A DNA stretch of 64,000 bases from Sphingobium sp. (GTDB lineage: Bacteria; Pseudomonadota; Alphaproteobacteria; Sphingomonadales; Sphingomonadaceae), in the NCBI GenBank assembly GCA_020446425.1, contig JAGRES010000010.1, positions 22,518 to 86,517 on the forward strand. Direction: 5' to 3'. The position numbers were made by a program, and so were the translations under genes. The notes beneath the pieces were generated by a model that saw nothing but the letters and a program-made list of their open reading frames with translations, ran no database searches and had not been told where the DNA came from. Numbering within the stretch: the stretch's first letter is position 1; each line of letters begins with the position of its first letter. Shown here in pieces: positions 1 to 23,643 of the stretch.

Positions 1-228
1 CGCCAGCTCGCCATGGCGCCAAGCAGCCTGCAGGGTTTCATCGCCAATGTGCGGGAAAGCTATGACCGGCTGGCCGGGGAAGGCGAGATTCCGTGCATAT
101 TGACCAACCCGGCGATCCGCCCGTTCGTACGCTCGATCATCGAGCGCGTGCGGCCCGCCACCACCGTGCTGTCGCAGAATGAAATCCATCCGCGCGCCCG
201 GATTCGCGCGTTGGGAACCATCGGATGA
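1..228 (+). CDS. flhA: FlhA, C-terminal end (partial)
   Basis: This is the last 75 codons of the flagellar type III export gate protein FlhA, cut off by the window start. The frame is open from base 1 to a TGA at 226-228. The segment matches the end of the cytoplasmic nonamer-ring domain: a PC(I/L)LT-PAIRP-VRSIIER stretch, then VLSQNEI at about residues 53-59 of the visible part, which is one of the best conserved signatures of the family. FlhA docks export chaperones and switches substrate class. The stop overlaps the first possible ATG of fliK (225), so the two may be translationally coupled. Confidence 0.93.
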   Translation, partial: RQLAMAPSSLQGFIANVRESYDRLAGEGEIPCILTNPAIRPFVRSIIERVRPATTVLSQNEIHPRARIRALGTIG

Positions 229-1568
229 GGGATATTCATCCTATAATGGAAAGAGCGTCTGCGCCCATGCATGAGAAAGACATGACCCCAACCGGTATCG
301 GCACTGTTTCACCTCCTCCATCGGCTGTTTCAGCCAGTTCGATACCGTCCGGTGCGGCGGCGGAGGCCTTTGCCGCTCTGTTGGGTGCTGTCGCCCCGCC
401 AGTTGCACCCCCAGTTGCGCCTGCCGCGTCGGGCCAGACCGGTCCCACGGCGGAAACCGCATCCTTGCTGCCGCTGCCGACAGCCAAAGCCGAAGGTTCA
501 GGAATACCGCCTGAAACAACAGATGCAGAGACAGCGCCCACTCCTGTAAAAACAGACGCGCCAAAAACCACTGCGGAAGTGGCGGATGCAATTGTGGAAA
601 CAGTCACACCGGCAGAAGAACAACAGACATCCGGGCAGCTGGAAGCGGACGATATCATAGCCCCGGACCTCAATGATCCGGCGCATGAACCGCTGGCGAC
701 CGGCAAAGGCGATACCGATCCAGCCGGTCGTTCGTCTGAGCATGAGATTGCCGCCCGCGATGGCGATAATGAGGTAGCTACCGGCTCAGAAACGCCGGAG
801 CTGACCGCCCCTGATCGCGCACTGCCTCTGCACGCCGTTGCCACTCCCTCCACTCCCGACAAGGGGAACAGCGACAAGGCTGCGCCTGTCGAGAACGGGG
901 ATGACGATCCTGTAAAGGTGGCCACCTCTGAAAACAGGCGGGCCATTGTCCCAACAGACACACGGCTACCGCCAACGATAGCAGCATCGCCCGTCAGCGG
1001 TCATGAATCTGCGCAGCCGGAGGATGGCAAAGCCCGCGTTCTGCCGGAGCAGGCCCAGCCGGCACTTGGCGCAATGGACGACACGCCCATCACGTCCAGC
1101 CGTTCCAGCCATATCGAAAGCGCCCCTGCCCTGTCCGTGCGCTCGGCGCGTTTCGGCGAAGAGCTGGGCATCGCCATTGCCCGCCACGCCAGCCAGAGCG
1201 CGGAGGCCCGGTCTGAAATATTGACGCTGCGCCTCGATCCGCCCGAGCATGGCCGCATCGAGGTGAAACTGACATTCGAGGACGGCAGCCCGCTGCGCGC
1301 ATCGGTCCTCACCAGCAACCCCGGCACGCTCGATCTGCTGCGCCGGGAAAGTGCGGACCTGTTCCGCGCGCTGGGGCAGGCAGGCCTTGACGCCAACACA
1401 CAATCTTTCAGCTTCGACAGCCGTGCGCAAAATGGCGGTCAGCAACAGCGTAGCAGCAACGATAGCCTTTTCACGACCGAGGACGGCGTGATGGACGATT
1501 TCGCCGCGAGCGAAGAGACGCGCTACCGGTCCATCCGGTCAGCCGGCACGATAAACCTCATCACCTGA
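225..1568 (+). CDS. fliK: FliK, flagellar hook-length control protein
   Basis: A long Ala/Pro/Glu/Thr-rich, low-complexity N-terminal part (residues ~1-310) is followed by a compact C-terminal hook-length domain (~325-415) with the typical LTLRLDPPEHGRIEV opening. FliK is exported, measures the hook and triggers the switch to filament substrates. Flanking flhA and flgD fit. The start is uncertain. ATG 225 overlaps the flhA stop, but a promoter-like TATAAT dyad at 235-251 lies just inside this extension. ATG 267 or ATG 282 (preceded by GAGAAAG) would give a short leader from that promoter. Both modes could operate. The N-terminal sequence is poorly conserved in the family, so identity rests on the C-terminal domain and context. 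Confidence 0.88.
   Translation: MRDIHPIMERASAPMHEKDMTPTGIGTVSPPPSAVSASSIPSGAAAEAFAALLGAVAPPVAPPVAPAASGQTGPTAETASLLPLPTAKAEGSGIPPETTDAETAPTPVKTDAPKTTAEVADAIVETVTPAEEQQTSGQLEADDIIAPDLNDPAHEPLATGKGDTDPAGRSSEHEIAARDGDNEVATGSETPELTAPDRALPLHAVATPSTPDKGNSDKAAPVENGDDDPVKVATSENRRAIVPTDTRLPPTIAASPVSGHESAQPEDGKARVLPEQAQPALGAMDDTPITSSRSSHIESAPALSVRSARFGEELGIAIARHASQSAEARSEILTLRLDPPEHGRIEVKLTFEDGSPLRASVLTSNPGTLDLLRRESADLFRALGQAGLDANTQSFSFDSRAQNGGQQQRSSNDSLFTTEDGVMDDFAASEETRYRSIRSAGTINLIT
234..251 (+). promoter_or_regulatory. TCCTATAAT dyad, copy A (fliK)
   Basis: ATTCATCCTATAATGGAA contains a perfect TATAAT (242-247) flanked by near-inverted TTCAT/ATGGA arms. It shares an 18-base run, GATATTCATCCTATAATG, with copy B at 2277. 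It sits 20-35 bases before the downstream fliK start candidates (267, 282), where a -10 element would be expected. I see no TTGACA-like -35. Confidence 0.6.
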
Positions 1569-1578
1569 AAGGACGCCC

Positions 1579-2250
1579 ATGGCCACCGATCCCATTGCCG
1601 CGCAATCCGGCGCCAGCGCCGCGCCGCAGGATAATGCCATCGCGCAATTATCGAGCGATTATACGATGTTCCTGCGCCTGCTGACCACGCAGATGCAAAA
1701 TCAGGATCCGCTCGATCCGCTCGATACCAGTCAATATACCCAGCAGTTGGTCCAATATTCGCAGGTCGAGCAATCCATCCAGCAGACCAAGGCGCTGAAA
1801 GACATATTGGCGCGATTGTCGGCGCAGGACATGGTCCAGGCATCGTCCCTGATCGGGCGGGAAGCGAGCTATGCCGATCCGGTGGCCGGACTGTCCGCTG
1901 CCGTGCCCGCGCGCTGGCAATGGCGCCTCGATGGCCAGCCCGCCAGCCTGATCGCCACCATCAGCGACGCATCGGGCCAGGTGGTCGACACACGCATATT
2001 GACGCCAGACACGCGGTCGCTGAGCTGGGATGGCCTGCTGGCGACGGGCGCCCTGGCGCAACCCGGCCTCTACAGCCTGTCGCTCGACGCGCGTGACACC
2101 AGCGGCAACACGATGACGTCGGAGACAGAATCCCTCGGCATCGTGCAGTCGGTTTCGCAGCAGGACGGCGTGCTGAATTTCACGGTCGGCGGTGTACCGG
2201 TGACCGCAGATGCCCTGCGCAATATCGCCCTGCCGCCAAGCGGCAATTAA
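1579..2250 (+). CDS. flgD: FlgD, hook-capping/scaffolding protein
   Basis: FlgD caps the growing rod and hook and guides FlgE polymerisation outside the cell envelope. The N-terminal part (residues ~15-75) has the family pattern: FLRLLTTQMQNQDPLDPLDTSQ followed by a Q-rich QLVQYSQVEQ segment. The rest (~85-220) fits the FlgD Ig/tudor-like region, with an SW-DG-L-TGA motif. At 223 aa it has the usual length. The start has an AAAGGACG ribosome site and lies 10 bases after the fliK stop, so it is cotranscribed with fliK. A hairpin-rich intergenic region follows. Confidence 0.93.
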   Translation: MATDPIAAQSGASAAPQDNAIAQLSSDYTMFLRLLTTQMQNQDPLDPLDTSQYTQQLVQYSQVEQSIQQTKALKDILARLSAQDMVQASSLIGREASYADPVAGLSAAVPARWQWRLDGQPASLIATISDASGQVVDTRILTPDTRSLSWDGLLATGALAQPGLYSLSLDARDTSGNTMTSETESLGIVQSVSQQDGVLNFTVGGVPVTADALRNIALPPSGN

Positions 2251-2253
2251 ATA

Positions 2254-2266
2254 TCCTCCAATAGGA
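2254..2266. promoter_or_regulatory. Variant dyad TCCTCCAATAGGA
   Basis: This 13-mer differs at two central bases from TCCTATAATAGGA (copy C, 7708-7720). It lies directly after the flgD stop and 31 bases (about three helical turns) before copy B. It could be a second half of a composite operator, or a weak hairpin after flgD. No T-tract follows. Confidence 0.35.
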
Positions 2267-2280
2267 GGGTGAAGCCGATA

Positions 2281-2296
2281 TTCATCCTATAATGAA
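2281..2296 (+). promoter_or_regulatory. TCCTATAAT dyad, copy B (sRNA candidate promoter)
   Basis: TTCATCCTATAATGAA is a near-perfect inverted repeat (TTCAT/ATGAA) around CCTATA, with TATAAT at 2288-2293. GCCG lies 10 bases upstream of TATAAT, as in copies C, D and F. No protein gene follows on this strand before 2598. The only thing downstream is the structured segment ending at 2431. Confidence 0.6.
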
Positions 2297-2299
2297 AAT

Positions 2300-2431
2300 G
2301 TGAGGCACGTTCCCAGCCAGTCCAGTCCCCAAACCGGGATACTGCCTTACCGCTCTGATCCGATCAGATAGCGTGCCAGGAGCCAGCGGGCCTGTCCCCC
2401 ACTACTAAGTCCGCTGGCTCCATTTTCGCTT
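2300..2431 (+). ncRNA. Candidate structured small RNA
   Basis: A segment of ~130 nt has no convincing reading frame but strong nested pairing. A closing stem GGCACG (2304-2309)/CGTGCC (2372-2377) encloses two hairpins. The first is CAGTCCC (2323-2329) with GGG(AT)ACTG (2336-2344); the second is TCTGATC (2354-2360)/GATCAGA (2362-2368). It ends in an 11-bp stem GGAGCCAGCGG (2379-2389)/CCGCTGGCTCC (2411-2421) followed by ATTTTCGCTT, which looks like an intrinsic terminator. The promoter-like copy B precedes it by a few bases. The structure is seen in the sequence; that it is an expressed, flagellum-coordinated regulatory RNA is inference. An alternative is an attenuated leader or the flgD 3' UTR terminator. 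Confidence 0.5.
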
Positions 2432-2473
2432 GCAGAACTGCGGATCCCGCCCACTTTCCCCCACCTTCCCTAC

Positions 2474-2529
2474 ATAAAAAACACCCCGGCCTTTCCGGCG
2501 CATGTGGGGCTGCGCCTGAAAGACCGGGG
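2474..2529 (-). terminator. Terminator for the 2599-3003 gene
   Basis: CCCCGGCCTTTC pairs with GAAAGACCGGGG with one mismatch. Read on the minus strand, the stem ends in a T6 run (AAAAAA on the plus strand at about 2475-2480). A second hairpin, GGCGGAGCC (2536-2544)/GGCTCCGCC (2566-2574), lies between it and the gene. Together with the sRNA candidate these account for the 348-base gene-free stretch 2251-2598. Confidence 0.65.
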
Positions 2530-2598
2530 GACAAGGGCGGAGCCGTTTACGGGGTTGAAAGGAGGGGCTCCGCCGATCACATGCCGCTATGCTGTCCG

Positions 2599-3003
2599 CT
2601 ATTTGCCTCCAGCCGAATGTTTCGCGGATATTTTCGATTTGAGATCGGTCATATAGGCCGCCCCGGCAGGCCGCGATGTGCGCTTGCGCGCACCTTCGGC
2701 GGACGCAGCTGCGGACTGAGCCGGCACAATCGCAAATGCCTCATAGGTGCAACCCGGCAGATCGCGCGGCCCGACTAGCATGGCGATACAGTCCGCCACG
2801 GAGGGGTCCTCCATCAGGCCGAGCATATCCTCGATATCAATGTCGTCACATTCGGAAAAAGTCAGCGCATAAGCCGCTGCGGCTCGCCACAACATCGCCC
2901 GGTCGCTGACCGAGATGTGGATTGCAATGTCATAACGATTTGACGCTGTAACTGCCTCGGCATTCATTCTGGCCCTGTCTTCAGGATACCGTAACATGTT
3001 CAT
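2599..3003 (-). CDS. Unrecognised small protein in the flagellar cluster
   Basis: I do not recognise this 134-aa protein. It is acidic in the middle, where an FSECDDIDIEDMLGLMEDPSVADCIAML-like helical region spans about residues 55-85. It ends in an Ala/Lys/Ser-rich tail and has no signal peptide or membrane segment. ATG 3003 is chosen over ATG 3024 because a GGGGGG run lies just upstream of it; ATG 2997 is also possible. It lies between flgD and flagellin on the flagellin strand, with the palindromic terminator of the next gene 100 bases upstream and its own terminator downstream. A flagellar or motility role is suggested only by position. Confidence 0.6.
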   Translation of the reverse strand: MNMLRYPEDRARMNAEAVTASNRYDIAIHISVSDRAMLWRAAAAYALTFSECDDIDIEDMLGLMEDPSVADCIAMLVGPRDLPGCTYEAFAIVPAQSAAASAEGARKRTSRPAGAAYMTDLKSKISAKHSAGGK

Positions 3004-3103
3004 CACCCGCCCCCCAATTTCCATTGGTATTGCCGCGTATCCCGAAAGGTCTTTTTATCTGTGCAGAGCATGAGCGAAGAGATTCTCCGTAACAATCAGT
3101 GCA

Positions 3104-3133
3104 AAACCCCTATGGAACATTCCATAAGGGTTT
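3104..3133 (-). terminator. Long near-perfect palindrome/terminator
   Basis: AAACCC-C-TATGGAA, CA, TTCCATA-A-GGGTTT forms a 13-bp stem with one mismatch. On the minus strand it follows the stop of the 3138-3539 gene by 4 bases and ends in GGGGTTTTG, so it can act as a terminator. Its symmetry and position before the next leftward gene would also suit an operator. Confidence 0.6.
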
Positions 3134-3137
3134 CGAC

Positions 3138-3539
3138 TCAGTGCAGCGACATTTCCGCCCGCCGCGCAAGCTCTCGCCCATGCGCGGTGACGAGGCATAA
3201 TTCGGCGTAGAGCCGGTCCCATAACGGCGCATCTATAACCAGCGGAAAGGACTCGTCCTGCTCCACCACGACCCGCGCAGTCGGTTGATAATCCAGATGA
3301 AAGCGCGAAGAGAACGGGGTGTCGGTGGCCTCGTCAGGCAGCATGTCCGGTCCCGCGAGCCGGGCCGACATGATGAAGCCCAGCAGAAGCTCCGCCCCAT
3401 AGAGGTTCAACGATATGGAGGGGCGGTGCTGCTGGTCCCGCCGCTCCAGCGTAACCAGCGCGCCCGATGGATGCGACGCAACCGTCACCCGCAGGCATGC
3501 CCCCAGATCATTGGTGATATCTCGTGTGCGACTATACAT
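3138..3539 (-). CDS. Unrecognised small protein upstream of 2599-3003
   Basis: This 133-aa protein is not recognised. It has an all-beta look: alternating hydrophobic strands such as LRVTVASHPSGALVTLER, SISLNLYGAELLLGFIM and ARVVVEQDESFPLVI. A helical end contains LWDRLYAELCLVTAHGRELARRAE. There is no signal peptide. ATG 3539 is preferred over ATG 3557 because GGGAGG sits 6 bases upstream of it. It lies between the flagellin terminator and the second unknown gene, on the same strand as both. The pair 3138/2599 may be co-regulated with the flagellum; nothing in the sequence fixes a function. Confidence 0.62.
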   Translation of the reverse strand: MYSRTRDITNDLGACLRVTVASHPSGALVTLERRDQQHRPSISLNLYGAELLLGFIMSARLAGPDMLPDEATDTPFSSRFHLDYQPTARVVVEQDESFPLVIDAPLWDRLYAELCLVTAHGRELARRAEMSLH

Positions 3540-3613
3540 TTTCGGCCTCCCGAACACATCGCCTGAACGCGTCAGTGATGGGGCTCTGAAATATTATCTC
3601 TGTCAGCCCAAAA

Positions 3614-3640
3614 AGGGGCCGGGGTCATGCCCGGCCCCTC
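3614..3640 (-). terminator. Flagellin terminator
   Basis: GGGGCCGGG (3615-3623) and CCCGGCCCC (3630-3638) form a 9-bp GC stem. Read on the minus strand it is followed by TTTTTGGGC, a classic intrinsic terminator 60 bases after the flagellin stop. Confidence 0.85.
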
Positions 3641-3698
3641 AGGGGTGATGGTGACAGTCCCGATCGAGAGGAAACCGCCCCGGTCACGCCATCCGCGA

Positions 3699-4553
3699 TT
3701 AACGGAACAGCGAGATGATGGTCGACGGCGCCTGATTGGCGATCGACAGAGCCTGCACGCCAAGCTGCTGCTTGACCTGAAGAGCCTGCAGTTTCGCCGA
3801 TTCCTTGGCAAGATCGGCATCGACCAAGTTACCGATACCGGCCTCCACCACGTCAGAGAGCTTGCCGGTGAACGACTGCTGCGCCTCGATCTGACGCGAA
3901 GCCGCGCCAAGGGTCGAGAGCGAAGTCGCCAGGTTGCTCTGGGTCGTGGTGAGCGTGTCGAGCATCGTCTGCGCATTGGCCTGCGTGTCGACAGCACCAG
4001 TCGTCGCAACTGTGACGACAGTACCGCCAAGGTCGAGACCCTGGTTGGCGACCGCCAGAGAGTCCGGCTGATAACCGGCCGTTACGCTGTCACCGTCCTT
4101 CAGAGACTGAAGCGCGGTAACGGTGCCGCCACCGGCCGCCAGCAGGTTGGTGCCGTTGAAGTCCGACGAATTGACGATCGTGGTGATCTGGTCACGCAGA
4201 GCGATAAAGTCGGAGTTGATAGCGGCACGGCTGTTGGCGTCGATACCGGCGTCGGCAGCCTGATAGGCTTTCGCTTTCATCTGGTTGATGACGTCGGAAA
4301 TCTGCTCGGCACCCGCAATAGCCACGTCGGTGACGCTCTTGGCACGGCTCAGCGACGAGCTGACGGCTTTCAGGCCGCCCAGGTCACCGCGCAGGGTCTG
4401 CGCAATGGCGTAGGACGCCGAGTCATCCTTGGTGGACGAAACGGACAGGCCGGTGTTGATGCGGCTCTGCACTTGCGAGAGACCGCGGTTGGTTTCATTC
4501 AGGCTCTGCAGCGCGGCCATCGCGCCCAGGTTGGTGTTAACGGAAAAACCCAT
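3699..4553 (-). CDS. fliC: Flagellin
   Basis: This is the filament subunit, exported through the flagellar type III system and polymerised outside the cell. The 284-aa protein is the short alphaproteobacterial type. The conserved N-terminal D0/D1 helices (residues ~1-140, with INTGLSV and SVTDVAIAGAEQISDVINQMK) and C-terminal D1/D0 helices (~195-284, ending in a SIANQAPSTIISLFR-like tail) are joined by a minimal variable region. A GGGAAG ribosome site precedes the ATG. A 7-bp hairpin in the leader and flbT in the same cluster point to translational control. A strong terminator follows. It is the only flagellin in the window. Confidence 0.96.
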   Translation of the reverse strand: MGFSVNTNLGAMAALQSLNETNRGLSQVQSRINTGLSVSSTKDDSASYAIAQTLRGDLGGLKAVSSSLSRAKSVTDVAIAGAEQISDVINQMKAKAYQAADAGIDANSRAAINSDFIALRDQITTIVNSSDFNGTNLLAAGGGTVTALQSLKDGDSVTAGYQPDSLAVANQGLDLGGTVVTVATTGAVDTQANAQTMLDTLTTTQSNLATSLSTLGAASRQIEAQQSFTGKLSDVVEAGIGNLVDADLAKESAKLQALQVKQQLGVQALSIANQAPSTIISLFR

Positions 4554-4594
4554 CTTCTTCCCTTTCTAGGAATACGGATCGCTTCTGCGTTCCG

Positions 4595-4613
4595 GGGCCG
4601 GAAACGCCGGCCC
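4595..4613 (-). promoter_or_regulatory. Hairpin in the flagellin leader (possible FlbT target)
   Basis: GGGCCGG (4595-4601) pairs with CCGGCCC (4607-4613) around a 5-nt loop, 42 bases upstream of the flagellin ATG, so it would lie in the 5' UTR. In Caulobacter FlbT acts on the flagellin mRNA leader, and flbT is present here. That this hairpin is its target is inference. The rest of 4614-4763 holds no clear sigma-54 or sigma-28 promoter in the flagellin direction. Confidence 0.4.
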
Positions 4614-4763
4614 GCGATGTGCCGCATGGCGCGGCTCACCTATCCATTTTGGGAAGGATTGAACGATGGCCGAAATGGATTGCGCATTATTCGTAGTTAA
4701 TTTCCCGTTGAGCATGGGAAGGCATGAAATCCGCCGATAAATTCATGCAAAAAAATGGAAAAT

Positions 4764-5501
4764 TCAGAAGGGCGACAGCACATCCAGCAGTTGCTGGCCC
4801 CAGCGGGCCTGCTGAGCGTCGGTCAACTGCCCCTTGCCGCCATAGCTGATCCGCGCTTCAGCGATCTGGGTATGGCGGATGCTGTTGTCGCGGGCAATGT
4901 CCTGGGGCCGCACGATCCCGCTGACCAACAGCTCGCGCAGCTCGAAATTGACGCGCGTTTCCTGTCGCCCGCGAATGATCAGATTGCCATTGGGCAGTAC
5001 GGCGGTGACGATGGCCGCCATCGTCATGCTGATGGTTTCGCTGCGGCTGGTGCTGCCCTTGCCGGATGAGGAGGAACTGGTCTGGCTGCCAACCAGATTG
5101 GCGGTGTCGACGCCGACAATGTCCTTGACGATCTTCTCCAGCCCGAAAATCGCGCTGGCGCCGCCGCTTTCCGATCCGTCCCGGGTGCGGCTGGTCGAAT
5201 TGCTGACGCTCGCCTTGTCGGAAATGTCGATCCGGATCGTCAGAATATCGCCCGCCTTCGCCGCGCGCTGGTCCTGGAACAATGCGCCGGAGCCGGTGCG
5301 GAACAGCGAAGCCGACGGGGAGGCAATTCCAGCAGGTGGCGGCGCAGCGGCGCGGTCGCGTGCAAGCGACGCCTCGACATCGGGAACCGCGACCTGTTCC
5401 ACCTCGCTCATCTTGGGCGCGCGTCCGACATGGCCCAACCGGCCCATGGTGCCACATCCGGCAAGCGAGACCAGCATGGCGCAAAGCAGCAATTTTCTCA
5501 T
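4764..5501 (-). CDS. flgH: FlgH, flagellar L-ring lipoprotein
   Basis: FlgH forms the outer-membrane L-ring bushing around the rod. The 245-aa protein starts with a lipoprotein signal (LLLCAMLVSLAGC, lipobox Cys16). It carries the family core with SLF-TGSGALFQDQRA--GDILTI-I (about residues 65-95) and a C-terminal GNLIIRGRQETRVNFELRELLVSGIVRP-DI block (~170-200) followed by a conserved DARISYGGKG-like end. Its ATG overlaps the flgA stop, so the flgF-flgG-flgA-flgH unit is probably translationally coupled here. Lipidation would need Lgt (48137). The gene is intact and of normal length. Confidence 0.95.
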   Translation of the reverse strand: MRKLLLCAMLVSLAGCGTMGRLGHVGRAPKMSEVEQVAVPDVEASLARDRAAAPPPAGIASPSASLFRTGSGALFQDQRAAKAGDILTIRIDISDKASVSNSTSRTRDGSESGGASAIFGLEKIVKDIVGVDTANLVGSQTSSSSSGKGSTSRSETISMTMAAIVTAVLPNGNLIIRGRQETRVNFELRELLVSGIVRPQDIARDNSIRHTQIAEARISYGGKGQLTDAQQARWGQQLLDVLSPF

Positions 5502-5965
5502 GGCGCGACAACCCCTACTTCCCCGCGCGCCAGCACATGCGCATCAATCGTCTTGCTGGTCGCAAGATTGACGACCCGCACAGCCTCTCCCGATGCTCCA
5601 TCGCCCAGCGCCTTGCCAGGTGCTGTGATTTTCAGCCTGCCCTTCACGAGGGTAAGCACCACTGCATCGCCGCGCCGCACCAGCGCTGGCTGGGTAACAT
5701 CACTGGCGCGTAATATTGCGCCTGCCGCCAATGTGCGCCGCGCCTCCATCCCGTCGGCATGCTCCGCGCGCAGGGCAAAACGCAACTGCGCGGCGGGCAT
5801 GGCGCGCGTCTCGAAATCCTCGGCGCGCAAAATCTCGCCGCGCGAAACGGCGCGTACCAGAACATCCCCTTCCATCAGCGGTGCGGATGCGGGCTGCGCG
5901 TGAGCGGCGGGCGATAATGCCGCCAGCGCAGTGGAACCAAGCATCATTGTCATTGCGCGGATCAT
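5498..5965 (-). CDS. flgA: FlgA, P-ring assembly chaperone
   Basis: FlgA is a periplasmic chaperone for FlgI polymerisation into the P-ring. The 155-aa protein has a signal peptide (to about residue 24, AHA-QP) followed by a SAF-like domain with VLVRAVSRGEIL, AGAILRASDV, and a C-terminal LTLVKGRLKITAPGKALGDG-VRV-N segment. It is shorter than enterobacterial FlgA and lacks an N-terminal extension, as is usual in alphaproteobacteria. ATG overlaps the flgG stop and the stop overlaps the flgH ATG. Its client FlgI is not in this window. Confidence 0.88.
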   Translation of the reverse strand: MIRAMTMMLGSTALAALSPAAHAQPASAPLMEGDVLVRAVSRGEILRAEDFETRAMPAAQLRFALRAEHADGMEARRTLAAGAILRASDVTQPALVRRGDAVVLTLVKGRLKITAPGKALGDGASGEAVRVVNLATSKTIDAHVLARGEVGVVAP

Positions 5966-6747
5966 CGCAGCTGGCTCGACGTCGACAGCATTTCATCGAC
6001 CGTCTTCACCACACGGCTGTTCATTTCATAGGCGCGTTGCGCGGAGATGAGGGCGGTGATTTCCTCGACCGGATTGACGTTCGATCCCTCGACAAACCCC
6101 TGCGTCACCATACCAAAGCCGGGTTCACCGGGGTTGGCGAGGCTCGCCTGCCCCGACGCAGCGGTTTCGATCAGCAGATTATCGCCCATCGCTTCCAGAC
6201 CCGCATCGTTGATGAAGGTCGCGAGCTGGATCTGCCCGACCGTCTGCGGTGCGGGATCGTCGGACGTGCGCACCTGCACCTCGCCGGTGCGCGATATGCT
6301 GACGTCTATCGCGCCTTCCGGAATGGTGATGCCGGGCTGCACCTGCAAACCCTGCGCCGTCACCAGTTCGCCCTGATCAGAAAGCTGAAAACTGCCGTCG
6401 CGGGTATAGGCGGTCTCGCCGCTGGGCAGCGTGATCGGGAAATAGCCGCGCCCCTCAATCGCGATATCGTAGCGATTGCCGGTCTGCTGGAGCGAACCCT
6501 GCTGCTCGATCCGGTAGACCGCGCCGGTTTTCACGCCCGCGCCGATCTGAATGCCCGACGGTACGCGGCTGTCATTGCCGCCCGCCGACGTGCCAGGGCG
6601 CACCTCATGCTGATAGAGCAGGTCCTGAAACTCGGCGCGTTGCCGTTTGAACCCGGTCGTGTTCATGTTCGCGATATTGTGGGAAATCACGTCCACATTG
6701 GTCTGCTGCGCGAGCATGCCCGACGCCGCGATAGAGAGAGAACGCAT
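5962..6747 (-). CDS. flgG: FlgG, distal rod protein
   Basis: FlgG builds the distal rod that crosses the periplasm. At 261 aa it shows the family ends: MRSLSIAASGMLAQQTNVDVISHNIANMNTTGFK at the N terminus and EEITALISAQRAYEMNSRVVKTVDEML at the C terminus, which form the D0 coiled coil. The middle contains GIQIGAG and the TQG-L--TGN-like LQQTGNRYDIAI segment. The ribosome site is excellent (GAAGGAGATT). It is separated from flgF by an inverted-repeat element (6771-6849), unlike the coupled genes downstream. Confidence 0.96.
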   Translation of the reverse strand: MRSLSIAASGMLAQQTNVDVISHNIANMNTTGFKRQRAEFQDLLYQHEVRPGTSAGGNDSRVPSGIQIGAGVKTGAVYRIEQQGSLQQTGNRYDIAIEGRGYFPITLPSGETAYTRDGSFQLSDQGELVTAQGLQVQPGITIPEGAIDVSISRTGEVQVRTSDDPAPQTVGQIQLATFINDAGLEAMGDNLLIETAASGQASLANPGEPGFGMVTQGFVEGSNVNPVEEITALISAQRAYEMNSRVVKTVDEMLSTSSQLR

Positions 6748-6770
6748 TGCTAATCTCCTTCGGAAGGTTT

Positions 6771-6849
6771 CGGCACCGGCCCTCTCCCCCTCCCGACCTC
6801 CCAGATTCTACCCTGTCGGGAGGTTGGGAGGGGGAGAGGGCCGGTGCCG
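6771..6849. repeat. Hairpin repeat element, copy 1
   Basis: The left arm (6771-6802) and right arm (6818-6849) are almost perfect inverse complements over about 32 bases (CGGCACCGGCCC...GGGCCGGTGCCG). They enclose a 15-base loop containing TACCCTGT. Copy 2 at 8427-8503 has the same outer arms and the same loop octamer, so this is a dispersed REP-like element, not a simple terminator. It sits between flgG and flgF. Confidence 0.85.
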
Positions 6850-7634: not shown

Positions 7635-7706
7635 TGCGCTCTCGCTTCCCATCCCGGCAAAATTTTCACCTTTTGGGCGCGGCCCGGAAATTTTTGCCGC
7701 CCTTCG

Positions 7707-7724
7707 TTCCTATAATAGGAGGAA
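7707..7724. promoter_or_regulatory. TCCTATAAT dyad, copy C (flgF/fliL divergent)
   Basis: TTCCTATAATAGGAGGAA holds a perfect 13-base palindrome TCCTAT-A-ATAGGA. TATAAT is at 7711-7716 and GCCG lies 11 bases upstream, within TTTTGCCG; the same TTTTGCCG-N11-TATAAT arrangement occurs at copy F. It lies 63 bases before fliL and about 75 before flgF. Being symmetric, it could drive both. Confidence 0.65.
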
Positions 7725-11039: not shown

Positions 11040-11056
11040 TTCCTCTATAATAGGAA
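11040..11056 (+). promoter_or_regulatory. TCCTATAAT dyad, copy D
   Basis: TTCCTCTATAATAGGAA has TTCCT/AGGAA arms around CTATAAT, with TATAAT at 11046-11051 and GCCG 10 bases upstream (11032-11035). It is 38 bases before the 82-aa gene at 11089 and about 45 bases from the divergent gene start at 10998. Confidence 0.6.
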
Positions 11057-17681: not shown

Positions 17682-17728
17682 CTATGCTCTCCCTCAGAGC
17701 GGGAGGGCGACATGCACATTCCCGCACA

Positions 17729-17744
17729 GCTATTATAGGAAGAG
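17729..17744 (-). promoter_or_regulatory. TCCTATAAT dyad, copy E (flgE)
   Basis: On the minus strand this reads CTCTTCCTATAATAGC, with TATAAT at 17737-17732, about 50 bases before the flgE ATG. It faces leftward, away from copy F. The two copies lie about 100 bases apart and face the divergent flgE and flbT transcripts. Confidence 0.62.
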
Positions 17745-17833
17745 CGCGTAACCCGCCCCAAATAGGCGCGCGTTTTTGTCGGCACGCCCAAAAACCGGCA
17801 AAAAATGCCGATGCGGCAAATTTTGCCGACCAA

Positions 17834-17847
17834 TCATCCTATAATGA
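17834..17847 (+). promoter_or_regulatory. TCCTATAAT dyad, copy F (flbT-fliI-fliJ)
   Basis: TCATCCTATAATGA is a perfect TCAT/ATGA inverted repeat around CCTATA. TATAAT is at 17840-17845, and TTTTGCCG ends 11 bases upstream, as at copy C. A transcript from here would start near 17852 and supports a flbT start at 17865-17877, not farther upstream. Confidence 0.65.
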
Positions 17848-17876
17848 GAACATCCCCCGGTCAGATGGGAATGGAC

Positions 17877-18281
17877 ATGCTGAAAATTCGCCTGCGTAAC
17901 GGAGAGAAGATGGTCGTGAACGGCGCTGTGCTGCGCGCCGCGAGCGCCACGACGCTCTGGCTGGAAAGCGACGCGGCGATATTGCGCGGGCGGGAGGTTA
18001 TGCGTCCTGAGGAAGCGAACACTCCCGCCCGCCGACTCTATTTCGCGTGCATGATGGCCTATATCGACGCGGAGGGCCGTCCGGCGCATCAGCAGCAGCT
18101 TGTCGGGCTGCTCGGCGACCTGATGAACGCCATCGAATCGCCGCACGCCAAGGCAGCCTGTACCGCGCTGGCGCATGACCTTGCCTCCGCCCAATATTAT
18201 CGCGCCCTCACCCATTGCCGCAGCCTGATCGACCATGAAGACGCCCTGATGGCGGAAGCGGCGCGCCACGCTCAGCACTGA
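17877..18281 (+). CDS. flbT: FlbT, flagellin translation regulator
   Basis: The 134-aa form begins MLKIRLRNGEKMVVNGAVLRAAS, the characteristic FlbT start. It continues with an ESDAAILRGREVMRPEEANTPARRLYFACMMAYID segment and a helical C-terminal half. In Caulobacter FlbT represses or destabilises flagellin mRNA until the hook is complete; its usual partner FlaF is not visible beside it here. ATGs at 17865 and 17871 are also possible. Longer versions are unlikely because dyad copy F (17834-17847) would fall inside them. It leads the fliI-fliJ-transglycosylase operon. Confidence 0.87.
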   Translation: MLKIRLRNGEKMVVNGAVLRAASATTLWLESDAAILRGREVMRPEEANTPARRLYFACMMAYIDAEGRPAHQQQLVGLLGDLMNAIESPHAKAACTALAHDLASAQYYRALTHCRSLIDHEDALMAEAARHAQH

Positions 18282-18290
18282 GCCTGTACC

Positions 18291-19640
18291 ATGCGCCCTT
18301 CGCTTTCAGAAATAGCCCATGCCGTACGGCAGCTGCCAATTGACAGCGCCTATGGCCAGGTCGCAGCGGTCCAGGGCGCGATGATCGAGGTTGAGGGCCT
18401 GCTCGAACGCGCAGCCATTGGCGCGCACCTGCGCATCGACTGCGGCGCGGAGATGCTGGATGCGGAAATTACCGGGCTGGACAGGGGCGTCGCGCATTGC
18501 CTGCCCTTCACGGAACCACGCGGCCTTTCCACAGGCGCGAAGGTCCACGTCGTCGCGGGGCAGGACCTGATCCGCCCGTCGCGCCGCTGGCTGGGACGCA
18601 TGATCGACGGGCTCGGTAGGCCGGTCGACGGCAAGGGGCCGCTGCCGCAAGGTGGCATGGCGCGGCCCGTTCGCGCCGAACCGCCCCCCGCGGCATCCCG
18701 TGAGCGGGTGGGCGACCGCATCGAAACCGGCGTGCGCGCACTCGATATGTTTGCGCCGCTGTGCATCGGCCAGCGCCTCGGCCTGTTCGCGGGCAGCGGC
18801 GTGGGCAAGTCGGTGCTGCTCTCCATGCTCGCGCGCTGGACGCAATGCGATATCGCGGTCATCGGCCTTATCGGCGAGCGCGGCCGCGAGGTGCAGGAAT
18901 TTGTCGAGGACGATCTTGGCCCTGAGGGTCTGGAACGTTCCGTGCTGGTGGTCGCGACATCCGATGCGCCCGCCCTGATGCGGCGGCAGGCGGCATGGAC
19001 CACATTGGCGGTGGCCGAGCATTTCCGGGATCAGGGGCTGCATGTGCTGTGCCTGATGGACTCGGTGACGCGCTTCGCCATGGCCCAGCGTGAGATCGGC
19101 CTCGCCAATGGCGAGCCGCCCGCCTCGCGCGGCTATACGCCCTCGGTCTTTGCCGAGCTGCCGCGCCTGCTGGAGCGCGCGGGGCCGGGTATGATTGGTC
19201 AGGGGTCTATCACTGGCCTGTTCACGGTGCTTGTCGACGGCGGCGATCATGACGAACCCGTCGCGGACGCCGTGCGCGGCATATTGGACGGGCATATCGT
19301 CCTGTCGCGCAGCATCGCGGAGCAAGGACGCTATCCCGCCATCGACCTGCTCAAATCGGTATCGCGCACCCTGCCGCACTGCCTCCAACCGTCGCAAAAT
19401 GCACTGCGGATGGAGGCGCGCAGCCTGTTGTCGCTCTATGGCGACATGGAGGAGATGGTGCGGCTCGGCGCCTATCGGTCGGGCAGCAATCCCGAAGTCG
19501 ACCGCGCTATGGCGCTGGCCCCGCAGATCGAGCAGATGCTGCGGCAGGACAAGCAGGATCGCGGCAATGCAGACGGCGCATTCACGCATCTCTCCGAAAT
19601 TATTGCGCCGCCTCCATCCGATGACGGGGATGATGCATGA
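18291..19640 (+). CDS. fliI: FliI, flagellar export ATPase
   Basis: FliI is the cytoplasmic ATPase of flagellar type III export, related to F1-beta. The 449-aa protein has the Walker A motif GSGVGKS at about residues 168-174 and an IGLIGERGREVQEFVEDDLG stretch. The LCLMDSVTRFAMAQREIGLANGEPPASRGYTPSVFAELPRLLERAG block is diagnostic for FliI/SctN ATPases. The C-terminal helical domain has SLYGDMEEMVRLGAYRSGSNPEVDRAM. It is complete. The stop overlaps the fliJ start (ATGA). Confidence 0.97.
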   Translation: MRPSLSEIAHAVRQLPIDSAYGQVAAVQGAMIEVEGLLERAAIGAHLRIDCGAEMLDAEITGLDRGVAHCLPFTEPRGLSTGAKVHVVAGQDLIRPSRRWLGRMIDGLGRPVDGKGPLPQGGMARPVRAEPPPAASRERVGDRIETGVRALDMFAPLCIGQRLGLFAGSGVGKSVLLSMLARWTQCDIAVIGLIGERGREVQEFVEDDLGPEGLERSVLVVATSDAPALMRRQAAWTTLAVAEHFRDQGLHVLCLMDSVTRFAMAQREIGLANGEPPASRGYTPSVFAELPRLLERAGPGMIGQGSITGLFTVLVDGGDHDEPVADAVRGILDGHIVLSRSIAEQGRYPAIDLLKSVSRTLPHCLQPSQNALRMEARSLLSLYGDMEEMVRLGAYRSGSNPEVDRAMALAPQIEQMLRQDKQDRGNADGAFTHLSEIIAPPPSDDGDDA

Positions 19641-20095
19641 AAACGCCGTTCGACCCCGCCATCCGCATCGGCAGGCGCAAAGTCGACGCTATTCGCCTGC
19701 GCATAAAAGCGGAGATCGAATGCGTATCGCATTATGAAAGCGCGCTCTCGGCACTGGAACAGGAGCGCAAAGAGGAATGCACGCGCGCTGGCGGCGACTG
19801 GACGATCTCAACCTATGAATGGCTGCGTGCGCGGCAGGCGCAGGCACACATATTGGCCGAGCAGCGCATGGAGGCAAGCGAACGGCTGGAGCGCTTGCGT
19901 GAAGAGGCGACGCAGACCTATGGCCAGTGCCGCGCTCTTGAAAAGGCCGCCGACGCCCGCAGGGAGCAGGAACGGCAATCCGTAATGCGCAAGGCGCAGG
20001 CAGAAGCCGACGATCTCAGCAATGCGCGCCGGTTGCTGAAGCTGCGCGCCGCAGCCGCAGCAAGGAAACGGGACGGTCATGACCCAGCCGGTTGA
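19637..20095 (+). CDS. fliJ: FliJ, flagellar export stalk protein
   Basis: The 152-aa protein is almost entirely a charged antiparallel coiled coil, Gln/Glu/Arg/Ala-rich, as expected for FliJ. FliJ inserts into the FliI hexamer and links it to FlhA. Sequence conservation of FliJ is low, so the call rests on coiled-coil character, length and position directly after fliI with an ATGA overlap. The 3' end overlaps the following transglycosylase gene by 17 bases. Confidence 0.86.
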   Translation: MKTPFDPAIRIGRRKVDAIRLRIKAEIECVSHYESALSALEQERKEECTRAGGDWTISTYEWLRARQAQAHILAEQRMEASERLERLREEATQTYGQCRALEKAADARREQERQSVMRKAQAEADDLSNARRLLKLRAAAAARKRDGHDPAG

Positions 20096-21089
20096 GTATC
20101 GCGCACTGACGCCGCAGCAGCGCGCCAGGGTCATATTGTCCACCGCGCGCGCGGAAACGGCGTCGCAGCTCTGGCGCGCCGCCTTGGGGACCGACGTATT
20201 GGCCACGGCACCGACAGGATGGTCACCCCCGAAGTTCACGCAGAATGCGGGATCCGGCAATGCGCTCGCCGCGCTGCTCGCGGGCAGCCTGTCGCCCGCA
20301 CCCCAGCCCGGCTCCTCCTATATATCCGGCGGTGTGGCGCCGACGGGCAGCATCGATAGGGCAAAGACTTCTGCACTGCCGGAAATCATGGCCGGGCTTC
20401 ACCCGCCTCTGGAAGGTCTGGGCGCCAATACGCGCTATGCCGGTGCCCTGCAGGCAGCGAGCCAGCGGACATCCATTCCGGCAGGGGCGATTGCCGCCAT
20501 CATAGACGCCGAAGCGGCGCGGCTGGGCGATGGCAGCTGGAACCCGCATTCCCGTAACCCCCGTTCCAGCGCCGCCGGGCTGGGCCAGTTTCTCTCCGGC
20601 ACATGGATATCCATGGCGCGTGACAAGGGCTCGGCGCTTCACGCAATGGCGCGCGATCACGGCCTTGTCAGCGCCACTGGCGATATTGCGCCGGGTGCCC
20701 GCTCGCGCTTGCTGGCATTGCGGTATGATCCTGCCGCAGCCATTGCCGCAGTTGCCGATTATGCCCGCGCCAATCTGGAGCTTCTCAAGAGCAAGGGCAT
20801 CGCCATCGGCCATGATCCCCGCTCAGTCGCCCGCGCCGCCTATATCGGCCATCATCTCGGACCCGGCGATGCGCTCCGCTATTACCGCGGCACCCTGGAC
20901 CAGGAGCGCGCGCGCCTGTTGCTGACGGCGCAAGTCGGCTCTCAACGCGCAGAGCATTATATATCGAAAACTGGAAATCCTATAATTTCACATCGAAATT
21001 GGTTGGATGACTATATCGCAAAACGCGTGCAGCCGCATAGATATTATAGCAATATCAATACTATGCCGCGCAATTCATCTGCCTCATAA
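20079..21089 (+). CDS. Lytic transglycosylase-like muramidase in the fliIJ operon
   Basis: The 336-aa protein has a lysozyme-like SLT fold at about residues 115-215. A helix reads IPAGAIAAIIDAEAARLGDGSWNP with a candidate catalytic Glu, then SSAAGLGQFLSGTWISMA, the GLGQF-TW motif of SLT/peptidoglycan hydrolases. No signal peptide is evident. It probably opens the cell wall for the rod, a job done in many bacteria by FlgJ's hydrolase domain, which is absent here; that role is inferred. ATG has GGGACGG upstream. The last ~45 codons are conspicuously AT-rich and contain dyad copy G, so the C-terminal tail may be a recent extension into regulatory DNA. Confidence 0.78.
   Translation: MTQPVEYRALTPQQRARVILSTARAETASQLWRAALGTDVLATAPTGWSPPKFTQNAGSGNALAALLAGSLSPAPQPGSSYISGGVAPTGSIDRAKTSALPEIMAGLHPPLEGLGANTRYAGALQAASQRTSIPAGAIAAIIDAEAARLGDGSWNPHSRNPRSSAAGLGQFLSGTWISMARDKGSALHAMARDHGLVSATGDIAPGARSRLLALRYDPAAAIAAVADYARANLELLKSKGIAIGHDPRSVARAAYIGHHLGPGDALRYYRGTLDQERARLLLTAQVGSQRAEHYISKTGNPIISHRNWLDDYIAKRVQPHRYYSNINTMPRNSSAS
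20974..20989. promoter_or_regulatory. TCCTATAAT dyad, copy G (inside the transglycosylase 3' end)
   Basis: GAAATCCTATAATTTC is a perfect 16-base palindrome around CCTATA, about 215 bases before the sigma-factor start. Only the central CCTATAAT is shared with other copies, but the symmetry is retained. The surrounding DNA is AT-rich, unlike the rest of the gene. Confidence 0.55.
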
Positions 21090-21092
21090 AAT

Positions 21093-21123
21093 TTATAGGA
21101 TAGGTATTCCTACTTATAGGATG
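21093..21123 (-). promoter_or_regulatory. Two reversed TCCTATAA sites before the sigma gene
   Basis: TTATAGGAT occurs at 21093 and again at 21114, exactly 21 bp (two helical turns) apart on the same face. They read ATCCTATAA on the minus strand. TAGG-TATT-CCTA (21101-21112) lies between them. The arrangement fits cooperative binding and autoregulation of the sigma gene at 21205. Confidence 0.55.
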
Positions 21124-21204
21124 TTTTAGCGGACGGTGAATCCCCCCTGATACACCGGTCAGCAACAGCACAATCGCTGTGCCGCATTGTTCAGGGGATA
21201 ACCA

Positions 21205-22221
21205 ATGTCGAAAACTACCGACCTGCTCGAAATTGCCGTTGCCGACGTTATTGCAAATCGACCCGCCGAGGGACAAAAGCCCAGCGCGCGCCAACGTGCC
21301 GCCGTCGACCGGGCCTTTGTCAGCGTGATGAAAATCATCGCACCGCGCGTCCGTCACTTCATCAAGCAATATGGTCTAATGCAGCATTGGGAGGATGCCG
21401 AGCAGGTCTGCGCCATAGGCGTTCATCGCGCCATCGAAGCCTATGACCCTGACAAGGCGAAATTCACGACCTTCGTCAACTGGCAGCTGCGTGGCGAGCT
21501 TCAGGGCCTGCGATTCCGCCTGATGGACGACCAGCGCCCGTCCGCGAAAAAGGTCGAGGCGACGACCATATCGCTCAATACTACGGAGCGCGGCCCGGAT
21601 GGCGAGGAAATGCCGCTGGAAACCATGATCGAGGACGAGGGCGCCCTGGAACGTACCGAGGGCTCAGCCTGCAATCACATGGCCGAGCAAACCGGCGAAG
21701 CGCTGATCGACGAATATGTCCGGCACCTGCGCAGCGTCGGCATTGCCCAGCTCAAACGGAAATCGCGCACCGGCCGCAACATCCGGAAGCGGCGCAATGC
21801 GGACTCTTCGCTGCCCAAATATGTGCACAGCCCCTTGCCCCATATCGACCCGGAAGAGCTGAGAAAGCTGGAGGAACGCATCGAACGCGATCGCGATATC
21901 GTGGCGCGCCACCTGTTCGGCCAGACAGAGACGGATCTGGACGCCGAGCTGGATGCGGGGCTGACCAAGGAGCGGATCCGCCAGATTACGCGCCGGGCCG
22001 CGCGCCTGATCAGCGAACTTGCCTCCGGCAATCCTCGTTTCAGCGGAGACGAAACCGCAGCGGAGATTTCCTTTGAAGAGCGGAAAGCCAATATGCTGCC
22101 CGCCGCCAATGATGATGGGCAAAAGCATTCCGCCCAGGTGACGGACCCCGATGTCGCGGAATTTGACACACTGATGGCCGCGACACAGACAGCCGCCCGG
22201 ACATCGCATTTGCGGCACTGA
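21205..22221 (+). CDS. Sigma-70-family factor linked to the flagellar cluster
   Basis: The 338-aa protein has a sigma region 2 at about residues 60-110 (HWEDAEQVCAIGVHRAIEAYDPDKAKFTTFVNWQLRGEL, the polymerase-binding and -10-melting signature). It has a region 4 helix-turn-helix at ~225-272 with GLTKERIRQITRRAARLI. Between them is a long non-canonical linker with a basic KRKSRTGRNIRKRR patch (~184-197) in place of an obvious region 3. It is neither FliA nor RpoH by motif. A good AGGGG ribosome site precedes ATG 21205. Reversed TCCTATAA sites upstream suggest feedback. A specialised flagellar sigma is the natural inference. Confidence 0.82.
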   Translation: MSKTTDLLEIAVADVIANRPAEGQKPSARQRAAVDRAFVSVMKIIAPRVRHFIKQYGLMQHWEDAEQVCAIGVHRAIEAYDPDKAKFTTFVNWQLRGELQGLRFRLMDDQRPSAKKVEATTISLNTTERGPDGEEMPLETMIEDEGALERTEGSACNHMAEQTGEALIDEYVRHLRSVGIAQLKRKSRTGRNIRKRRNADSSLPKYVHSPLPHIDPEELRKLEERIERDRDIVARHLFGQTETDLDAELDAGLTKERIRQITRRAARLISELASGNPRFSGDETAAEISFEERKANMLPAANDDGQKHSAQVTDPDVAEFDTLMAATQTAARTSHLRH

Positions 22222-22242
22222 TCGCCATATTTTCCATATTAC

Positions 22243-22296
22243 AGGATAGGCGCGGTTCCTGCTGGAGCGGCGCCTATCCTATATCATCCTAAAAAT
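22243..22296. promoter_or_regulatory. Dyad and CCTATA variants before the XRE gene
   Basis: AGGATAGGCGC (22243-22253) and GCGCCTATCCT (22270-22280) form an 11-bp inverted repeat with a 16-base spacer. They are followed at once by ATATCATCCTAAAA. The arms and the following CATCCTAAAA resemble the flagellar dyad core. The repeat may end the sigma transcript, but no T-tract follows, so an operator for the XRE gene is at least as likely. The rest of 22297-22428 contains a small ACGAC/GTCGT hairpin and a GATAGGATTC near-match at 22351, nothing else evident. Confidence 0.5.
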
Positions 22297-22428
22297 ATGC
22301 ACCATTTACGACCTAAAAGTCGTCAATGAGCATTTCCGCCAACGTACCGCCATGATAGGATTCGACTGCTTTTGACTGAAGCAAGCGGATTTATGGAAGC
22401 ATTTCGTACGGGGCCAGAGCGGTAGATC

Positions 22429-23643
22429 ATGAGCAGTACAGCCGCAAACGCGCCGTCCCGCGCGAAGGGGAAACGCAAGCCGAAGGGCCTCAGCCCCAGC
22501 TATAAACAGCAGATGGTGGGCCATACGCCCTCTGCGCCCGGCCGCCCCGGCGAGATAGCGATTGATCCATACCGGGCATATCCTTTCCCGAACGCCATCC
22601 GCGAAGAGCGCAAGCGTGCGGGGTACAGCTCTTTGCTGGCGCTCTCGCAGAAGATGCCGGAAATACCCTATATACGCCTGTCCAAGATCGAGCGCGGCGA
22701 GGTGTTCGCCAAGCCTGCCGAGCTATTGTCCATCGCCGCCACGCTGGGGCTGGAAGACGCCTCACGGCTGCTCGTTGATGTGGAAGACAGTGATTTTTCC
22801 GTAGCGCTATGGGCGGGGCTGAGCGGTGAAAAAATAGAGCTTAATCGCGAAGCGGAAGAACTCGCCATGCTGATGGCCGCCGCGCTGCGTTCACGCCGCG
22901 CCCAGGATCCGGAGCTCACACTTGCGCGGCTGAACGAGGAATTCAGCCTGCCTGCCGTTATCGTATCGCGCATCGAGAATGCCGCCAAAGCGTTCGACCG
23001 CTGGAACGCCAACACGCTCTCTTCGGTATGCGCCATATTGGGCGTCAAGAGCCGCAAGGATCTGGCCCAGCACCTGAGAGCCTCGCTCGAGCGCGGAGAG
23101 CTGGCCGCCTGGCTGAACCGGATTCCCGGCGCACCGGAGCGTGAAGCGCGCACGCGGCACAAGATGGCGGAACTGCGCACGAAGCTGGGGCAGCTGGAAG
23201 AACGATATTCATCCTATAAAGCTTCCGCCTCCAGCCACGGCAATGAGCCAGCCAAGCGCACGCCGCAGGCTGCTTCGGACCCCCTCACTCTGCAGGTTCT
23301 CGGTGTCCCGCTGGGCGATGGCCTGATCGAGCCCTATCCCAACCCGCATCATGTCCACGCGCCCGATGGTTCGGGACCCAATGCCTATGCGCTGCGCATG
23401 TGCCGCGCATCACTGGGCGCCGCCATTCCCGCACAGGCCATATTGATCGTCGATCCCGACCGCACCCCACTCAGCAGCGGCCTCGCCATATTGCGCGAAA
23501 AGGAAGGGCTGAGGGTATTGGCGGTCACGACCGACCGGGAAGGCCGCCTCTATGGTCATAGCAGCAACCCGGAAAAAGATATTGCGCTCGATACTATGGC
23601 GCCGTCGGACCTTCAGCTGGTCACCGCGATACTGCTTAGCTGA
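22429..23643 (+). CDS. Regulator with two XRE-type HTH regions and an S24-like C-terminal part
   Basis: The 404-aa protein has a basic N terminus and a first XRE-like helix-turn-helix at ~55-115 (IREERKRAGYSSLLALSQKM...RLSKIERGE). A second similar unit is at ~150-212 (LTLARLNEEFSLPAVIVSRIENAAK). A coiled coil spans ~235-265. The C-terminal domain (~285-404) reads like the S24/LexA-cI beta fold (ILIVDPDRTPLSSGLAILREKEGLRVLAVTTDREGRLYGH) without a clear Ser-Lys catalytic dyad. A phage-repressor-like architecture next to a sigma factor and palindromic sites points to flagellar gene control. Its 3' end overlaps the convergent CinA-like gene by 8 bases. Confidence 0.8.
   Translation: MSSTAANAPSRAKGKRKPKGLSPSYKQQMVGHTPSAPGRPGEIAIDPYRAYPFPNAIREERKRAGYSSLLALSQKMPEIPYIRLSKIERGEVFAKPAELLSIAATLGLEDASRLLVDVEDSDFSVALWAGLSGEKIELNREAEELAMLMAAALRSRRAQDPELTLARLNEEFSLPAVIVSRIENAAKAFDRWNANTLSSVCAILGVKSRKDLAQHLRASLERGELAAWLNRIPGAPEREARTRHKMAELRTKLGQLEERYSSYKASASSHGNEPAKRTPQAASDPLTLQVLGVPLGDGLIEPYPNPHHVHAPDGSGPNAYALRMCRASLGAAIPAQAILIVDPDRTPLSSGLAILREKEGLRVLAVTTDREGRLYGHSSNPEKDIALDTMAPSDLQLVTAILLS
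23204..23219 (+). promoter_or_regulatory. GATATTCATCCTATAA inside the XRE gene
   Basis: This 16-mer is identical to 231-246 (copy A) and 2277-2292 (copy B) but lies in coding sequence, where it encodes part of RYSSYK near residues 259-264. TATAAT is changed to TATAAA. The match is far longer than expected by chance in GC-rich DNA, so an internal regulatory site is possible. Confidence 0.4.

Follow-up and report, generated by a model that had tools for sequence, protein, structure and literature searches.

A candidate promoter element, TCC-TAYAAT, marking motility genes in a sphingomonad, and neighbouring genes that suggest a takeover of flagellar control by an unstudied sigma factor

The 64,000-nucleotide stretch of DNA analysed here, called the window below, is contig C5:22518-86517 of G000, a 2.73 Mb sphingomonad genome; judged by the gene sigX, its closest named relatives (61-68% identity) are Sphingobium records. 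Most of a flagellar cluster lies within positions 1-23643: the end of flhA, then fliK, flgD, flagellin, flgH, flgA, flgG, flgF, fliL, fliM, flgL, flgK, flgE, flbT, fliI, fliJ, a rod/transglycosylase-like gene (rod), the candidate sigma-factor gene sigX and an XRE-like gene (xre); flgH, flgA, flgG, fliJ, rod and XRE are named from position and by-eye reading. Within this cluster recurs the short element TCCTATAAT, whose consensus, TCC-TAYAAT-g, is by all appearances the core of a class of promoters marking motility genes both here and in related sphingomonads; the genes beside it suggest that an unstudied sigma factor took flagellar control over from the usual sigma-54 system. The sites considered, numbered in order along the window, and the first gene concerned are as follows.

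fliK: matches PF02120; start codon uncertain, with in-frame ATG at 225, 246, 267 and 282.
Site 1, 239..247, plus strand: TCCTATAAT, putative promoter element at the flhA/fliK junction.
Site 2, 2285..2293, plus strand: TCCTATAAT downstream of flgD, putative promoter of a probable small non-coding RNA.
Site 3, 7708..7716, plus strand: TCCTATAAT, putative fliL-fliM promoter element.
Site 4, 11043..11051, plus strand: CTCTATAAT, putative promoter element of the 11089 operon.
Site 5, 17732..17740, minus strand: TCCTATAAT, putative flgE promoter element.
Site 6, 17837..17845, plus strand: TCCTATAAT, putative flbT-fliI promoter element.

Exact TCCTATAAT occurs six times in the window (239+, 2285+, 7708+, 17732-, 17837+ and 20978+) against 0.12 expected, and none of 100 shuffles reached six. 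Five copies lie at flagellar genes, the sixth (20978+) within the rod gene (20079-21089). An initial annotation of this DNA had claimed six copies, a number that holds for the exact element; the site it placed at 11040-11056, however, reads CTCTATAAT, two letters off, and the copy at 20978+ was missing from its list. When one mismatch is allowed, 16 places are found in 1-24500, two of which (7712- and 11047-) are sites 3 and 4 read on the opposite strand, against 2 in 24501-64000. The last exact copy ends at 20986, in keeping with the initial annotation, which noticed none from 23644 to 64000. TATAAT itself occurs 22 times in the window against 6.8 expected.

The element had been read as one regulator's binding site, with two-fold symmetric arms, fused to a -10 box. 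That a regulon-specific element sits on a -10 box tied to flagellar genes is upheld, but its symmetry is not. Measured from the first T of TATAAT, the best dyad centres fall at 0.5 or 3.0 (site 1), 0.5 (site 2), 4.5 or 3.0 (site 3), 2.0 (site 4), 0.0 (site 5) and 4.5 or 0.5 (site 6); a centre at 0.5 could be common to sites 1, 2 and 6. Since no centre fits all six sites, a single palindromic operator was rejected in favour of an asymmetric -10-like element, TCC-TAYAAT. Promoter profiles were assembled from 65 flbT, 68 flgE, 16 fliL, 15 flagellin and 15 orf11089 distinct promoters; entry required at least seven of the nine letters (six for orf11089) and lower-scoring promoters were dropped, so that the information of the block itself is partly by construction. 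The TCC-TAYAAT block is prominent in the flbT and flgE profiles, and no mirror-image arm follows it in either. From the third letter (C) to AA the block hardly varies except at Y and its like, the two preceding letters carry 0.8-2.0 bits, and single positions elsewhere reach up to about 1 bit. The fliL and orf11089 promoters carry TATAATAG, and AG follows the box directly at fliL, at orf11089 and at some fliF or fliG promoters. Flagellin promoters carry TCCCAGAAT, and their profile reads TTtgG-N15-TcCCAGAATG. Fifteen bases above the element lies a weak -35-like TTTGG at flgE and flagellin, the -35 region of fliL is the dyad GGCAAAATTTGCC, and no standard TTGACA -35 box was found in the profiles or in a scan of 2200-3600. 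The flagellin features of the window are these.

3699..4553, minus strand: flagellin gene, whose best NCBIfam matches are flagellin models, all below their cut-offs.
4646..4654, minus strand: TCCCAAAAT, putative -10-like element of flagellin, with TTCGG at 4670-4674(-), 15 bases further up.

Across the whole of G000 there are 18 exact copies against 17 of a reversed control pattern (17 copies, too, if those at the start of contig C3 and the end of contig C11 are one), so that the total shows no enrichment; what stands out is the location, with 6 of the 18 falling within 2.3% of the genome. Motif density was compared inside and outside flagellar genes, and the outcome favoured the initial annotation, the element being concentrated at flagellar loci. 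Ten of the 12 sites outside the window were searched against Pfam, the other two being L003 and L002, which repeats the sequence of L016 at a contig end. The 12 include two methyl-accepting chemotaxis protein (MCP) genes, fliG, motA, a single-domain response regulator and a hemerythrin, and the fliF promoter of the cluster, on C5 upstream of the window, carries ATTCTATAATAG with a dyad above it. G000 has a second, FliA-type flagellar cluster on contig C30 (75000-108531; L225 and L226), with two flagellins, its own motA-like gene and a true FliA (216 bits); TCCTATAAT is absent from the 33.5 kb read there and from the rest of that contig.

The same concentration is seen in relatives. Across six of them, 28 of 43 exact sites lie inside one 15-55 kb span at the flagellar cluster (G327 4/4, G437 4/4, G518 5/8, G355 8/11, G259 7/13, G190 0/3); one of the eight in G355 adjoins an xre relative about 28 kb from the flgE stretch, and G190 carries CTATAATAG, TCTATAGTG and CCTATGATG instead of the exact element. 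Both G327 and G355 have the element before fliF and an MCP gene, and G355 also before motA; variants stand at motA of G327 (CCCTATAAT) and at fliG of the two (CTATAATAG or TCCTATAAG). A search centred on sigX found 127 loci, of which 80 named ones were kept and 65 hold flgE and flbT. In 1.34 Mb these 65 cluster loci contain TCCTAYAAT 125 times and the reversed pattern 6 times, while the 12 loci that lack rod, fliI and flgE (three of them ending at a contig end beside sigX) contain one in 218 kb. In 59 of the 65 cluster loci, six having been dropped for a distance over 600, flgE and flbT could be compared with no selection for a box match: at least eight of the nine letters of TCC-TAYAAT are present at flbT in 41/59 and at flgE in 43/59, a match that about 2% of Markov sequences reach. 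At least one exact copy occurs in 18 of 21 sigX cluster stretches, and none in the flagellar clusters of G274, G249, G053 and G233, where there is no sigX; the G053 cluster has seven one-mismatch copies, five being expected. Order-level FlgE loci have a different gene order and were unusable for footprinting. Ten same-genus genomes gave no FlgE of this type (E 1e-90), which makes the flagellar set unusual in the genus, within this sample.

The gene most consistently associated with the element is the following.

21205..22221, plus strand: sigX, sigma-70-family, 338 amino acids, behind flbT-fliI-fliJ-rod.

Profile and structure comparisons identify sigX as a diverged sigma-70-family gene. Its region 2 matches PF04542 (25.5 bits against a cut-off of 24, E 1.2e-5), and it has a region 4-like end, region 4 of the alignment profile matching RpoS and SigA chains. 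An AlphaFold (AF2) model has a predicted local distance difference test score (pLDDT) of 79.7 and a predicted template modelling score (pTM) of 0.45; the first 11 Foldseek matches are all chain F of initiation complexes, by the naming the sigma chain, at weak E-values of at least 0.012, none below 0.001. Of 21 relatives, 20 have the gene behind rod, as G000 does; the exception, G233, has a distant match away from the cluster. Profile search finds it absent from G274, G249 and G053, and G260 and G276 give borderline region 4 matches only. Upstream of sigX the CtrA half-site TTAACCAT occurs in 18/69 regions (Markov 0.0) as against 0/59 flgE/flbT regions, and GTTAAC in 28/69 (Markov 3.1) as against 2/59; the full CtrA box is found exactly in 0/69 and with one mismatch in 22 (Markov 7.9). 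The sigX region of G000 itself has no half-site, which leaves the CtrA link only suggestive here.

The state of FlbD follows the presence of sigX. In G000, flbD (C5:19962-20531, upstream of the window) encodes 190 residues with a receiver-like part and HTH_8 (49.8 bits) and no AAA+ domain, and no AAA+ sigma-54 activator domain was found on the flagellar contig. A comparison of 26 informative genomes kept G249, which is 86% complete and has a broken FlbD frame, and G260, at 67% completeness; G456 was dropped for a weak match of another helix-turn-helix (HTH) type, and G233 gave no FlbD row. HTH_8 aligned in 25 of the 26 rows, in G249 only as a separate frame. The GAFTGA motif, described as the sigma-54-contacting loop (PMC10274813), is retained in all five genomes without sigX (G274, G249, G053, G260 and G276) and in none of the 21 with it: nine of these keep the AAA+ domain with an altered loop (GAFPGA, GDFPGA, GAFAAA or a deletion) and 12 have no such domain. 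Judged by these residues, FlbD in the sigX clade is no longer able to activate sigma-54. In a FlgE tree G000 falls among genomes whose AAA+ domain is degenerate but still present (93/96), suggesting that the domain was deleted more than once.

A second DNA motif accompanies the element. The initial annotation had noted GCCG 10-11 bases upstream of TATAAT at four of six sites; it is indeed present there, at sites 2, 3, 4 and 6, but as half of a separate dyad, GGCAA-N3-TTGCC. Two instances in the window are listed here.

7686..7698, plus strand: dyad GGAAATTTTTGCC upstream of fliL, probable FlbD site.
17815..17827, plus strand: dyad GGCAAATTTTGCC between flgE and flbT.

By pattern, seven of eight genomes have a GGCA-type dyad upstream of fliF, the eighth, G274, has the imperfect copy GGCAATTTTTTCC there, and exact or near GGCAA-N3-TTGCC stands upstream of fliF in three relatives without sigX and without the element. 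TTTAC repeats were seen, by eye only, at fliF of sigX-less genomes. With at most one mismatch the dyad is more frequent than its Markov mean in 20 of the 21 stretches with a sigX cluster, and the loose form GGCA-N5-TGCC occurs 11 times in 360 kb of G000 sequence. The dyad may correspond to the ftr sites of Caulobacter. It is probably an FlbD site, and its place fits an account of Caulobacter in which FlbD acts upstream of fliF, at ftr4 (PMC3930126).

The reading that draws together these direct observations, namely the element with its conservation and genomic specificity, the linkage of sigX and the decay of FlbD, is that TCCTATAAT is the -10 of a motility-specific promoter class, most likely read by sigX, which would have replaced the sigma-54/FlbD pair while FlbD was kept as a DNA-binding modulator; we give it a probability of roughly two in three. 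SigX would guide RNA polymerase to the TCC-TAYAAT promoters of basal-body, hook, flagellin, motor and chemoreceptor genes, and may itself be under CtrA, given the half-sites upstream of it in many relatives though not in G000. FlbD, whose binding to the dyad and direction of effect we infer, would modulate the promoters with a dyad in or above the -35 region (fliF, fliL and the flgE-flbT interval), with GGCAAAATTTTGCC as its predicted target DNA. On balance we also lean towards a history in which, in one sphingomonad lineage, the flagellar regulon passed from sigma-54/FlbD to a new dedicated sigma-70-family factor, FlbD decayed stepwise to a plain DNA-binding protein (first losing the loop and then the AAA+ domain, whose deletion apparently took place at least twice on the FlgE tree), and control by CtrA may have shifted from early flagellar promoters to the sigma gene.

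Several observations weigh against this assignment. TATAAT doubles as the housekeeping -10. Among the non-window sites in G000, those at a globin, a TonB receptor, the start of a cinA-like gene and the inside of a flavin adenine dinucleotide (FAD) gene have no evident motility link, and L003 was assigned to no gene. Three genomes with sigX (G190, G303 and G346) have no exact copy in the scanned stretch, only variants. Co-variation between sigX and the flbT/flgE -10 letters is weak over 80 rows that include near copies, with FliI distance removed: r is 0.10 (p 0.09) for region 2 and 0.12 (p 0.03) for the whole protein, and FliI given sigX fares no worse (r 0.13, p 0.02). The FlgE tree allows one origin of sigX (one change, support 45/82), in which case the associations may count one event. 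Boxes for sigma-54 (TGGCAC-N5-TTGCW) are about equal to Markov in 21 sigX clusters and in 4 clusters without sigX alike, and rpoN is present in all 12 genomes checked, so that only its flagellar use seems lost. Finally, sigX relatives also exist away from flagellar genes.

Eight such relatives outside flagellar clusters lie on contigs that, by strain name, come from genomes with a listed cluster sigX and look like second copies; beside two of them (L147 and L180) the frames with a match encode an acetyltransferase, an oxidoreductase and a peptidase. Two further stretches, L048 (G138) and L167 (Citromicrobium UBA3494), contain sigX and a rod-like gene with no other flagellar gene of the panel; these are possible remnants after flagella loss.

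The alternative that survives best, unlikely as we judge it, is that these are housekeeping sigma-70 promoters without a -35 which depend on an activator, either dyad-bound FlbD or CtrA, that also sets them apart from other promoters, the TCC being incidental to a strong -10. The box is a perfect sigma-70 -10, the dyad covers the -35 region at fliL, FlbD retains its DNA-binding domain, and action at sigma-70 promoters has been reported for enhancer-binding proteins that lack GAFTGA (PMC10274813). However, the dyad is missing from the 35-45 bases above the box at fliG, motA and the MCP genes, TCC precedes only 1 of 101 TATAAT in 360 kb of other G000 sequence, the second flagellar cluster of G000 lacks the element, and the steady presence of sigX would be left unexplained.

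It is considerably less probable that the element is, as the initial annotation had it, the operator of a dedicated repressor or activator overlapping the -10, for which the XRE-like protein would be a candidate. The features that bear on this lie on either side of sigX.

21092..21121, minus strand: two one-mismatch copies, TCCTATAAA and TCCTATAAG, upstream of sigX.
22429..23643, plus strand: XRE-like protein, follows sigX in many relatives.

Reverse-oriented one-mismatch copies occur both upstream of sigX, as listed, and between sigX and xre (22238-22360), and are perhaps an autoregulatory site. In 26/69 regions of relatives, TATAGGAT (which is ATCCTATA reversed) lies upstream of sigX, 89-122 nucleotides from the start, and ATCCTATA on either strand upstream of xre in 18/46 against 0.1 expected, positions at which a promoter reading is less natural. 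Against an operator stand the lack of a shared dyad centre, the missing mirror arm at flbT and flgE, and the presence of an xre relative in only 40 of the 65 cluster loci. The XRE-like protein has no family match in profile searches; two HTH-like stretches were seen in it by eye.

FliA (sigma-28) promoters have -35 TAAA and -10 GCCGATAA. That sigX is simply a diverged FliA is very improbable: a dedicated flagellar sigma would follow the same logic, GCCGATAA shares CC.A.AA with TCCTATAA and the 15-base spacer of flgE and flagellin fits, but sigX scores 22.2 bits against a cut-off of 189.6 with the FliA_WhiG model TIGR02479, several sigma models matching it equally poorly, the true FliA of G000 belongs to its other flagellar cluster, and the element or a variant also stands at the early genes fliF and fliG, not at late genes only. 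The promoter profiles show neither the FliA -35 nor the FliA -10, and in the sigX-bearing G327, G190 and G303 no FliA passed the cut-off, none scoring above 111 bits.

Site 2 lies behind flgD, and the feature that follows it is given here.

2379..2421, plus strand: strong hairpin then ATTTT, possible terminator, about 90 bases after the promoter (-27.7 kcal/mol for a 50-nucleotide slice).

The unit at 2285-2425 is a probable flagellar small RNA. The terminator scan did not report the hairpin, which fails its criteria, and Rfam returned nothing at the gathering score on 2200-2620, the best match being a small RNA family at 26.7 of 50 bits. Behind flgD in six other genomes, G437 and G303 have a variant element and a hairpin, G327 has the element without a clear terminator, and G518, G355 and L163 have no element.

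The proposed system resembles the FliA/sigma-28 regulon of enterics and others in devoting a sigma-70-family factor to motility genes, including flagellin, motA and MCPs; it would differ in a factor that fails the FliA model and is encoded behind rod in an alphaproteobacterial cluster, in its -10, TCCTAYAAT in place of GCCGATAA, and in the inclusion of early genes. With the CtrA - FlbD/FliX - sigma-54 hierarchy of Caulobacter it has in common flbT and flbD in the cluster and an FlbD-type site at fliF (ftr4 in the Caulobacter account, PMC3930126); here, in contrast, FlbD is without GAFTGA or AAA+, and a sigma-70-family gene and its -10 seem to replace sigma-54. Loss of the contact loop together with action at sigma-70 promoters is described for the enhancer-binding proteins NtrC of R. 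capsulatus and Caulobacter and VspR of V. cholerae (PMC10274813), whereas the protein here is FlbD, and its AAA+ domain is entirely gone in 12 of 21 genomes. Flagellar control in sphingomonads has so far been described by analogy with Caulobacter: the 2022 account of Sphingomonas sp. WG calls FlbD a sigma-54 activator, states for its flagellar clusters that fliA was not found, and likens their gene order to that of strain S2M10 (PMC8921679). S2M10 is among our sigX loci (L158). No report of such a sigma/promoter system was found in the open-licence PMC literature. If the proposal is right, the sphingomonad flagellar cascade runs through an unstudied sigma factor, the motif could be used for predicting motility genes, and the clade would offer intermediates, some with an altered loop and some without the domain, between an ATP-driven sigma-54 circuit and one of the sigma-70 type.

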